Positions 32,377 through 50,207 of a DNA stretch of 64,000 bases are shown piece by piece (within the stretch, counting starts at the first letter, position 1; the number at the start of each line of letters is the position of its first letter). The position numbers and the translations under genes were made by a program. The stretch spans positions 9,893,574 through 9,957,573 of the forward strand of contig CM057162.1 of assembly GCA_029962745.1 (NCBI GenBank), written 5' to 3'. Source of the stretch: Echinometra lucunter. Taxonomy: Eukaryota; Echinodermata; Echinoidea; Camarodonta; Echinometridae. Below the pieces are notes generated by a model, which saw nothing but the letters and a program-made list of their open reading frames with translations, ran no database searches and had not been told where the DNA came from.

Positions 32377-32712
32377 TAGGTGGAACTGGAGGTGGATCAT
32401 CTGCCTTCACGGTTTTGCACAGAACGGTGCTAAGAGGAGAGGATGTCGTTCTACGATGTGAGGCACCAGAAACATCATCATTTGTCCTATGGAGAAAAGG
32501 TGATGACCCGCAAAGGTCCCCAGTTCTCATCAAGATAACGAGTGACGGATCATTGTCAGGCTCTTGTGTGTCTGACGGCTCCTGTGAGATGAGTAATAAT
32601 TACTCTCTCACCATCAAAGGAGCACAGATTGCTGACGGAGGCATGTACATATGTGTATCTTCAGATTCACGTCGCATTATCGAGTACAGCCTGACCAATC
32701 TTACGATACAGG
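32377..32712 (+). CDS. Ig V-like domain exon of the membrane receptor
   Basis: The exon lies between a ccatttcag acceptor (ending 32376) and a gtaagc donor (32713). It is phase 1-1 with 112 codons, the classic form of a shuffled Ig exon. A Gly/Ser-rich lead is followed by GEDVVLRCEAP (Cys 28), VLWRKGDD (Trp 39), NNYSLTIKGAQIADGGMYIC (Asp 87, Tyr 91, Cys 93) and the end strand YSLTNLTIQ. These are the B-strand Cys, core Trp and D.G.Y.C signature of a V/I-set domain. Two extra cysteines (64 and 70) could form a second disulphide. NLT near the end is a potential N-glycosylation site. The phases match the leader exons upstream and the stalk exon at 37755. This is an extracellular ligand-binding module; the ligand is unknown. 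Confidence 0.88.
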
Positions 32713-32751
32713 GTAAGCAAAACAAACAAAACAATACAGTGCGTCCGTTAA

Positions 32752-33168
32752 GACGCACTGGCTGAATATATGTAATGTATTTGATTTGTACCTTTTTAAA
32801 GGTATAATGTGGTATAGTTTTTTATTTATTTATTTTTTTCATTCTTCGCTCATCCCCCTCCTATATTTCACATTGTCCACTTTTCCTCTAATTCTTTACC
32901 CCTTGATTTTGTGCTAATGTTTGGCTTTTCCTTTGTAGTCTAATTATTCTTTAGTGTCCGATCTCCTTACGAACTTCATAATTACTTTAAGGAACCTGCA
33001 GACACTACAAGCTCTGCTTTTCATGCAGGTTCCTTCATATTTCACTTTATTTACTGCCATTATCTTTGTATTTTTCTATGTAACCAAATGTATTTCTTGT
33101 ATTATGCTATTATTTTTTTATCTTGTGAAGTATGAAAATAAATTCAATTCAATTCAATTCAATTTAAA
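32752..33168 (+). mobile_element. Retroposed fragment with (ATTCA)n and poly-A tail
   Basis: Interrupts the left arm of the foldback between cagtgcgtcc and the ttacacttttg arm. It ends aaaataaattcaattcaatt and then poly-A, a typical 3' tail of a non-LTR retrotransposon. No RT coding is visible; only a 3' UTR-like piece is present. Confidence 0.55.
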
Positions 33169-33669
33169 AAAAAAAAGCTTTTACACTTTTGAAATGGCTG
33201 CCAAATGAAAAATACATGATTCTGGAAGAAAAGGTTTAAATGTATGGATAGCTCAGGGACTCAACTTTCATATGAGACCAAAAAGGCCGAAAATATCTCA
33301 TGCTTGGGTGAGCACTGCTCACTTTAGTAAGGGGTATGAAAATTAGGTTGCGCAGGAATTGCACCTTTCAATTTGTGAGAGATGAGTCCTTTGGAGGTTA
33401 CAGAATTGAGGGTGATATGATGAATTCATGATCAGTTGCGATCAGTTTAGGTTTGCTGAGTGAGTTTTATGGTTTATTAAATCAAAATTTTATGCATGAG
33501 TGAACGGGAATTGCATTCATTATTGTAGCATTGTACCTTTCCCTGGTAGACTCAGTGGTGTGTTCATGGGAGTCAGGATTGGGTGATGGTACATGTTGCA
33601 CGGGAGGTGAGATAGGGTAAGACTTTGTTAGGTAGATGGGATAAGGGTCAAGAGGACAGTATGCCCCCC

Positions 33670-47810: not shown

Positions 47811-48071
47811 ACTCTTATTTCTGCAGAGTCGAATTTGACTCGGAATGGCGTTAGCTGGAAGTCAACTCTCTTCCGAGTTAGAAAGACTCGGATACCCGAA
47901 TTAATTAACTCGGAAAAGCGTGGTGTCATCTGAGAATCGACTAAATTCGAGTCAGTGTAACTCCATTCCGAGTCAAATTAATTCGGACATCCGAGTCACT
48001 TTAACTCCGAATGGAGTTGACTCCCAGCTGACTCCATTTCGAGTCAATTTGACTCTGCAGAAATAAGAGTG
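47811..48071. mobile_element. Palindromic MITE with GACTCGGA motif
   Basis: Left cactcttatttctgcagagt, right actctgcagaaataagagtg. Inside are repeated gactcgga/tccgagtc and actccattccgag units in both orientations. No ORF. Confidence 0.85.
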
Positions 48072-49519
48072 TATGCCCACCCCCTCTGCTATAAAGATAT
48101 TATTATAAATGATGCTGACATTTCATGTTAGAGAATTTAATTTGCGTATATTGGGGAGATATCCCACTCAGAATCTATTGCTAGTTCATTTCACTCCATG
48201 TTCACATGCTGTCGCATCCGGAACAATCTCAGTTTGATAAATTATTTTTAAAATATTCATTTTCACGAAATTTGATCATGATTACACTGTTACCTTTCAA
48301 TACAAGCAATTGTAATTATATTGTATTTCAAGTCCCTCCAACCAGTTATTACTATGAAAAAATGAAAATCATGTGTCATTTTAGGAAGATTATCCATTTT
48401 TCAGATAAAAAATGTAAAAAACAGAAAATTTTACATATTGGGGGCAAATTTTTCCTCTTAATTCTCTTAATTCTGAAGCTTACATGTTATGCATTAGAAA
48501 ATGATAGGAAAAAATACTTATTACAGGGACCTCAATTTGAAAGTGATAATTTGATATATGGAAATTCTTTTTTTTTTCTGCTGTTTGCTGCCCTCTACAG
48601 ATAAGACTGAAGAAATTTGGGCTCGGGCACTAATTTTCTTATGATATAAACCCTAGCCTGGGCAAGATTTCTGTCAAGGTTTCCAAATTAAAAAAAAACA
48701 AACAAACAAAAACATAATTCTAAAATTTAGTCAATTTTTCCACCTAGTTAAACGGTTGATCCGAAACAAAACCATATTACTTTGTAATCGTGCCATATGC
48801 TCAAAAGTGAAGAGGGGGTCACAGACTTGAGGTTATGAACTAAGCCACTTGGGTTGCCCCCCCCCCCCCCCCCAATCCACCACTGTAATGGAACCGGTTA
48901 TGAATGTCTTTTTTCAGTAGCCCTTTATGCTGAAACATAGAAAGAACTACTCTTATTGTGAAGAAAGGGCCTATTTTTTTTTAAGCAACCTAAGCTTGAC
49001 CTGACTTTAAAGTCAGCTCGCTGGTTATCAGAGGCACTCCTAAGTTCTCTTTGATATACTTTATTTGGTCTAAGTATGTAAAATTTATTTCCCTCCTCAT
49101 TCCCCCCTCACAAAATGCACCCCTTTGTAAAGCCATAATCATCTCAATTGAAAAATTATCCGTACATCCCATGGAGTGAAAATTCCTGCTAAAGGATTTT
49201 AAAAGAAGGGCCAATGAGTTTTCATGCGTACTGCTTCATATTTCTGTATCATGTCACCTATGTTTTCAACATGCACAGGAATACGCGCATAGGTCCTTTG
49301 TTGGGTCAGCCCCATGTGCCAGGGATTTTGTTAAAGATAATCGTAAAACTGCCGCTGTATTTGAAGTTAAATATGTGAGCGAGCCTTAACGTGTTTGCCT
49401 CCTGAATCTCAAGAATGTATCGAAGCCCTGGTGTCATGGGATGGGGAAATAGTTTTCAATTGACTTTGATATTAATCAAGCATTTTCAAAGTTTGTCTTC
49501 TTTCTTTTTTGTTTTGTAG

Positions 49520-50207
49520 GTCATCCGACAAATCTTATTCATTTGACATTGATCTGCAAACGTGTAAAACAGGCCACGACATTCTAGAACATTTCATCGA
49601 AAGTGGACTCCATCCTTTCGAGGACAATAAAGCAGTCTGGGCAAACCGACGAAGTACTATAATTGTCTGCCTCATTTGCCAAAAAAATGGTCACCCTGAT
49701 CATGCGGATAAACTTTTGATGAGAGAATTTAAATTCGAAGAACCCGCGCAAGGAGAAATATTGGAAGACATCAAGCGCGAAATAAAGTCAACCGATAATC
49801 GAAATCTGAAAATATTCACAAATTTCTCGCCATGTGATATTGATGAGCACAAATTTAGGTCTGAGCTCTGGAAACTTAAGGTAGACTTAGATGTGGACCT
49901 GAAGTTACTATTTCCAGCCTTCTATATAGATATCAGGCGACCAACATGCGAGTCATGTAAGCACCCCCGACATCCAAGAGAAAAGAGCCGGTCCAATTTC
50001 CAAGAACTTCTAGAGTTGGACTCTGAACCCTTTGAAAAGAAAGACTGGGATGATTTTATCGAGTTGCTCATGAAGTTTGATGAACAGGAGAGTCGTTTAC
50101 CAGAAAACCTGTTTGAACTTCGCTATGGAACGCAGTATGGAAGATGGCGGGACTGGGGCGATGAACAGATGATGAAAGACTTCGAGGCATTGCGCGAGGG
50201 ATTCTAA
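49520..50207 (+). CDS. Terminal exon: AID/APOBEC-like deaminase-fold domain, degenerate active site
   Basis: The exon runs from a gttttgtag acceptor (49511-49519) to TAA at 50205-50207, giving 229 codons with the shared Arg as residue 1. It is open throughout, with rich coding character. The order of elements recalls AID/APOBEC deaminases: strands RRSTIIVCLICQ, a HAD tripeptide (residues 62-64) where HxE is expected, an acidic helix, the strand-motif NLKIFTNFSPC (Cys 106) like WFTSWSPC, LKLLFPAFYIDIRRP like LRIFTARLYFCEDR, then KKDWDDFIELLMKF. The catalytic Glu is Asp, and the second Cys of PCxxC is absent (PCDID). The spacing from HAD to PC (about 40 residues) exceeds the usual 23-28. A separate CESC pair lies at residues 148-151. 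Catalysis is therefore doubtful, and the family call is by pattern only. It forms the cytosolic part of the Ig receptor. Confidence 0.55.

Follow-up and report, generated by a model that had tools for sequence, protein, structure and literature searches.

A candidate gene for an immunoglobulin (Ig) domain membrane receptor was analysed in a 64,000-nucleotide stretch of the Echinometra lucunter genome (assembly GCA_029962745.1, contig CM057162.1, forward strand, positions 9,893,574-9,957,573), referred to hereafter as the window, and all coordinates below are window positions (1 being its first letter). The predicted product most likely comprises, in order, a signal peptide, one V-set Ig domain, a short stalk, a transmembrane helix, a juxtamembrane linker rich in Cys, and, at the C terminus, a domain in the cytosol that is most likely a pseudoenzyme of deaminase fold. 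The exons, with their joins predicted from genomic DNA, are as follows.

11670..11739, plus strand: candidate leader exon 1, putative signal peptide MEASSARWLSFAIGSYVILICFS, phase-1 donor CGG/GTGAGT, in-frame stop 51 bp upstream
15367..15424, plus strand: candidate leader exon 2, putative signal peptide MEAYCAKLISFLAIIISFL, phase-1 donor TGG/GTGAGT, in-frame stop 81 bp upstream
32377..32712, plus strand: Ig V-set exon, 336 bp, phase 1-1, recognised by its reading frame and the Pfam V-set match
37755..37835, plus strand: stalk exon, 81 bp, phase 1-1, its 3' end (..SPWKI) being where the transmembrane segment begins
42891..43013, plus strand: transmembrane exon, 123 bp, phase 1-1, with a Cys- and Lys/Arg-rich juxtamembrane stretch after the transmembrane segment
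44413..44500, plus strand: cytoplasmic linker exon, 88 bp, phase 1-2, recognised by frame and splice scores
49520..50207, plus strand: terminal exon, 688 bp (one split codon, 228 whole codons, and a stop), with a possible degenerate deaminase fold

The exon chain

An earlier note on this DNA had joined the five exons from Ig to terminal without frame conflict, and the exons are confirmed at the same positions: every intron border is GT-AG (five of five acceptors AG, four of four donors GT), the phases match (1-1, 1-1, 1-1, 1-2, and 2 to stop), and 437 whole residues follow a split first codon. When a leader is included, the frame holds a single stop, at its 3' end, and the open frames of 461 and 457 residues that had been claimed were reproduced with leaders 11670-11739 and 15367-15424, respectively. 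Splice sites were scored with our own textbook matrix against all 3,298 AG and 3,504 GT sites in the window; the acceptors, from the Ig to the terminal exon, fell at percentiles 94.8, 97.4, 86.6, 99.6, and 99.9, and the donors, from the Ig to the linker exon, at 99.7, 95.2, 99.5, and 98.0. The stop-to-stop frame of the terminal exon runs to 243 codons, a length reached in none of the 200 first-order Markov sequences of 64 kb that were simulated (longest frame 213). Its first Met does not occur before residue 67, so that an upstream exon is required, and the first AATAAA 3' of its stop lies at 50882.

The leader scan of 5400-32377 yielded six leader-like frames (one in a stricter scan), two of which, those listed above, are of the right length to give 461 and 457 residues and have the best donors among the six (11.0 and 8.7 bits). 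Because they share both an ATG context, CAAC ATGGAAGCGT, and a GG/GTGAGT phase-1 donor, the two leaders look like related first exons. They lie 3.7 kb apart and may be alternative first exons or the remnant of a duplicated gene start.

That these exons do not form one working messenger RNA, either because the terminal exon belongs to a different gene from the Ig, stalk, transmembrane, and linker exons or because the gene is decaying, is in our estimation quite unlikely. The joins are indeed predicted from the DNA, the introns are long (17 kb from leader 2 to the Ig exon, then 5, 5, 1.4, and 5 kb), and the transmembrane acceptor reaches only percentile 86.6. A codon-usage test (408 training codons) also leaves room for this alternative, for although only 41 of 1,818 non-coding windows scored above the terminal exon, its coding frame was outscored by another of its frames; as the test was thus not frame-specific, it was left unused. 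The locus has, moreover, undergone partial duplication that left a dead copy of the stalk exon:

29615..29695, plus strand: decayed stalk-exon copy within 27887-30215, acceptor AG changed to AT, donor intact, two more differences in 81 bp

The surrounding block, 27887-30215, matches 36075-38355 near the stalk exon at 89.5% identity, and further duplicated blocks pair 27134-27408 with 35758-36029 (97.1%) and 26199-26458 with 32061-32330 (89.0%); no second Ig exon was found upstream of the decayed copy by pattern or by reading of the duplicate. Against a split or decaying gene stand the five joins, all in phase, the transmembrane helix completed across a splice, and the terminal exon itself, which combines the best acceptor of the five with a long open frame and no early Met. 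The model exons also retain open frames and intact splice dinucleotides, unlike the duplicate stalk, whose acceptor is gone; since the stalk of the model is intact, the locus fits a gene still in use after an earlier local duplication of part of the ectodomain. One gene for a type I single-pass receptor, with predicted splicing, is well supported.

Ectodomain and topology

The Ig exon matches the V-set family (PF07686) at 34.5 bits (E 2.6e-8; 30.3 bits for the joined protein, cut-off 26) and also exceeds the Pfam cut-offs for Ig_3, I-set, and, narrowly, Receptor_2B4. The closest PDB sequence is a T-cell receptor single-chain variable fragment chain (E 3.1e-7, in an alignment that takes in its artificial Gly/Ser linker), followed by antibody light chains from E 1.8e-6. 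Two N-glycosylation sequons, NYS and NLT, are present.

Signal peptides and transmembrane segments were called by simple hydropathy. The hydrophobic helix IVLVIVAVVLCSLTVSCCM spans the splice between the stalk and transmembrane exons, the former contributing its first residue; with a mean hydropathy of 2.87, it is the sole region across the 437 residues with 19-residue windows above 1.6, and the basic stretch KIHWRQCCIKCK follows directly on its inner side. Because a single hydrophobic helix is followed by these basic residues, the protein fits a type I topology, with the Ig domain predicted to lie outside and the tail in the cytosol. The gene resembles the type I receptors of the Ig superfamily that carry V-set domains, having leader, V, stalk, transmembrane, and cytoplasmic exons, phase 1-1 through the transmembrane exon, V-set features including DGGMYIC in the Ig exon, a V-set score above cut-off, a putative signal peptide, and one transmembrane helix with its positive side inside. 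The difference lies in a tail domain of 228 residues in place of a short tail bearing signalling motifs. Pattern searches of this tail for an immunoreceptor tyrosine-based inhibitory motif or YxN gave no match, and picked out a single isolated Yxx[ILV] (YIDI) as well as a TRAF6-like PFEKKD. The earlier note's reading of a V-like ectodomain on a type I receptor is supported by the V-set match, by the T-cell receptor and light-chain sequences nearest to it, and by the single membrane segment with inner basic residues.

Fold of the cytoplasmic domain

For the tail encoded by the terminal exon, the reading that we favour, with a probability of about one in two, is that of a degenerate, catalytically dead domain of AID/APOBEC-like deaminase fold, which would serve the receptor as a scaffold or nucleic-acid-binding module. 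Template-free single-sequence models of the whole exon and of a crop, both of low confidence (predicted local distance difference test scores of 46 and 50), place the elements in the order helix, strand, strand, helix, strand, helix. The top Foldseek match in the PDB for the whole-exon model is APOBEC3H (E 8e-3, probability 0.90), and 36 APOBECs and four DddA structures account for 40 of the best 50 among 381 matches (E<=10); with the crop, 38 APOBECs and three matches to DddA or a DddA-derived editor make up 41 of the best 50 among 415 (E<=10). Among the matches listed, 50 per model, none reached E<=0.001. The best family hint from sequence is PF14424, Toxin-deaminase, at E 0.19-0.26 and 11.9-12.3 bits, below its cut-off of 29.6; this match, to the single deaminase family in the Pfam listing, spans residues 79-106 of the terminal exon, a helix, a strand, and SPC, and ends on SPCD. 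A deaminase fold is suggested by these models.

Several results weigh against that fold. A local comparison of the exon with an AID profile fell short of significance (scores as high in 42 of 300 shuffles), as did one with a broader AID/APOBEC/CDA1 profile (33 of 200), and a glocal test with a position-specific scoring matrix placed 439 of 1000 shuffles as high, the exon lying at z 0.1 and four other polypeptides of the window, taken as controls, at z -1.1 to 0.4. In global mode the broader profile was equalled by only one of 200 shuffles; the score was not counted because the Pro-Cys (PC) motifs were left unpaired in the alignment. A semi-global, free-end matrix alignment, of a design ill-suited to the question, gave a score of 0.64, which 520 of 600 shuffles equalled or exceeded. 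Furthermore, the models matched RadC and designed Top7-like proteins about as well as they did the APOBECs. The deaminase-fold module proposed earlier is thus no more than suggested: its comparison with AID/APOBEC failed in the local profiles, while the sub-threshold PF14424 match and the low-confidence models, which mostly match deaminases among the matches listed, speak for it.

Wider searches gave no significant family for the terminal exon in Pfam, NCBIfam, PADLOC (0 families), or PHROGs (0 families), nothing at E<=10 among PDB sequences, and no APOBEC, AID, NAD, or SNAD profile in the Pfam listing, which filters out most weak matches. A search of 5.8 billion proteins retrieved 104 candidates that share words with the exon and 823 that share words with the whole protein, none of them scoring E<=10; as this search reaches only relatives with exact five-residue words and similar length, with E-values for the whole set, distant relatives can escape it. 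Human AID as query in the same set returned 181 proteins, bearing nr and UniRef names. A tblastn search against phages found no match, and a pattern search found none in viral contigs and 18 in genome contigs, none of which was confirmed.

Other candidates were set aside. Matches to 3-Hydroxyanthranilate dioxygenase (NCBIfam, E 0.045) and cREC_REC (Pfam, E 0.087) fell well under cut-off and were taken as chance, and a JAMM/RadC-type metalloprotease, raised by the RadC fold matches, was rejected since its HxHx7SxxD pattern is absent. The best match of the crop in BFVD was A0A481YRN8, an uncharacterised protein of Marseillevirus LCMAC101 (E 1.5e-3, probability 1.00, 18% identity); deaminase-like names were few among the 50 BFVD matches listed for it.

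Active-site residues and Cys/His clusters

The AID/APOBEC family motif is H[AVS]E-x(24-36)-PCxxC, as given by Liu et al. (PMC5956068). Neither H[AVS]E...PCxxC nor CxE...PCxxC occurs in the cytoplasmic part at any spacing of 20-40. The candidate counterparts and the Cys/His cluster downstream of them, numbered by residue of the terminal exon, are as follows.

49701..49709, plus strand: HAD, residues 61-63, first possible HxE counterpart, Glu changed to Asp, 40 residues before PC as against 24-36 in PMC5956068
49749..49757, plus strand: QGE, residues 77-79, second possible HxE counterpart, His changed to Gln, at the start of predicted helix 77-90 and 24 residues before P104
49827..49844, plus strand: SPCDID, residues 103-108, possible PCxxC counterpart (P104-C105-D106-I107-D108), second Cys changed to Asp
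49947..49973, plus strand: CESCKHPRH, residues 143-151, possible zinc-binding cluster C143-x2-C146-x-H148-x2-H151, by pattern only

If strand 62-71 and helix 77-90 are correctly predicted, the HxE counterpart is Q77-G78-E79, and otherwise it is possibly H61-A62-D63; whichever is aligned, two of the four active-site residues are changed. In 20,000 shuffles of the exon, SPC occurred in 331, [STN].[ST]PC in 57, [HQ]xE..PC in 553, a strand followed by PC (in the order strand-[ST]..SPC) in 64, and H[AVS][ED]..PC in 106, all of these patterns having been picked post hoc, after the exon had been viewed.

It is highly improbable that the tail is an active deaminase of nucleic acids whose zinc site is unusual (H61 or Q77, C105, and D108) and through which ligand binding would be coupled to editing; this reading is disfavoured because the catalytic motif is absent. 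One Cys ligand is retained, together with a His (H61, if HAD is aligned) or a Glu (E79, if QGE is), and AID-like proteins of sea urchins and brachiopods are reported in PMC5956068 to be active in bacterial assays. Beside the missing motifs and the two differing residues of four, a domain tethered to the membrane would require access to its substrate.

A second cluster, C50-x2-C53-x4-H58-x2-H61 (49668-49703), is similar in pattern to that of C143-H151, which, given a deaminase fold, would sit in APOBEC loop 7. Both CxxC..HxxH clusters are unaccounted for by a deaminase fold, and they support the main rival explanation, in which the receptor is real and its tail is a fast-evolving cytoplasmic domain of a kind not yet described, which zinc at the two clusters may stabilise and which would act as an adaptor. 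The empty family searches, the non-significant local profiles, and the low confidence of models that Top7-like designs and RadC fit about as well as APOBECs all accord with such a domain. We nevertheless consider it unlikely, though a stronger contender than the others, given that deaminases make up 40 and 41 of the 50 PDB matches listed for the two models, that the PC motif falls between a predicted strand and a predicted helix as in the deaminase fold, and that the zinc reading comes from pattern alone, with no zinc-finger family in the Pfam listing, where weak matches are mostly filtered. A half-likeness to the B-box (CxxC..HxxH), spotted by eye, was rejected; none appears in that same filtered listing.

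Comparison with known deaminases

The pseudo-deaminase tail that we favour was set beside three groups of deaminases. To our knowledge, members of the AID/APOBEC family are soluble and carry one or two deaminase domains. The tail resembles them in the fold matches of its models, among those listed, in its predicted strand, SPC, and subsequent helix, and locally, though not significantly, in the stretch WANRRSTIIVCL, which is like WAKGRRETYLCY of AID. It differs in having neither H[AVS]E-x(24-36)-PCxxC nor a significant sequence match, and in standing behind an Ig domain and a transmembrane helix. Because the motif and profile tests failed and the fold is no more than suggested, the tail is not filed as an AID/APOBEC member. 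In size it is similar, at 228 residues against the 193-198 quoted in PMC5956068. The family takes in AID, APOBEC1-4, lamprey CDAs, and the sea urchin and brachiopod AIDL proteins of that paper.

With the SNADs, of which we know of none containing an Ig domain, the predicted protein has in common a deaminase-like domain behind a signal peptide. The deaminase domain of a SNAD would face the outer side, whereas the tail here would be cytosolic by its predicted topology; the signal peptide does not lead into a secreted-side deaminase domain, since an Ig domain and a transmembrane helix intervene. According to the part of PMC11004436 consulted, which is also the source for the arrangement in SNADs, a signal peptide was present in 26 of the 38 SNADs analysed, six SNAD1 proteins among the 38 had a membrane-anchoring N-terminal region, and the zinc motif is retained in most SNAD1 sequences; no Ig domain is mentioned in that part. 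The likeness to toxin deaminases of the BURPS668_1122 type is the sub-threshold PF14424 match over helix, strand, and PC, PF14424 being a bacterial toxin family. Among the titles and abstract openings listed from the openly licensed literature, none was found to describe a receptor combining an Ig domain with an APOBEC-like tail; that literature leaves out the survey of animal AID/APOBEC-like proteins by Krishnan et al. 2018 (PNAS).

Proposed mode of action and significance

Some APOBECs have actions that are not catalytic, and the Ig recognition and APOBEC fold are otherwise connected through the action of AID on Ig genes. In the proposed mechanism, the V domain would bind a ligand or cluster at the cell surface and so bring the tails together, and the tail, like those APOBECs, would act without deamination, either by offering partners a surface on which to dock or by binding nucleic acid close to the membrane. 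With somewhat less assurance than we attach to the dead deaminase fold itself, we tentatively suggest a class of surface receptor with a V domain in which an AID/APOBEC fold devoid of deaminase chemistry has become the cytoplasmic tail, used for signalling or for binding nucleic acid; its role as an immune sensor is one that we only infer. If true, an Ig V domain and an AID/APOBEC fold would be united in one receptor, the fold would serve in signalling or binding with no editing involved, a directly testable pseudo-deaminase receptor would be at hand, and the search for invertebrate immune receptors would widen. Should the tail not have the APOBEC fold, the gene would still encode a V-set receptor whose large tail domain is recognised by none of the libraries searched.

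Neighbouring features

A tRNA-Arg(TCG) gene is called in each of the duplicated blocks (28225-28296 and 36362-36433), and the tRNA-like regions match each other also when inverted, like a palindrome. Arrays of 42-bp and 16-bp repeats, of the CGTTATTCCGAAGGTTCGTTAATCCGAAAATGAAA type, form inverted arms at 28430-28837 and 36567-36968. An open reading frame (ORF) on the minus strand, 23911-24399, encodes a GIY-YIG domain (Pfam E 2e-5) and is perhaps the remnant of a Penelope-like retroelement; the adjoining ORF, 24474-24845, matches no Pfam family. On the plus strand, ORF 4412-5332 (306 codons) strongly matches the NXPE4_C domain (Pfam E 2.5e-68). C-type lectin exons at 58467-60236 on the minus strand, with Lectin_C at E 2e-7 in one ORF and sub-threshold at 0.0085 in the next, likely belong to a neighbouring lectin gene.

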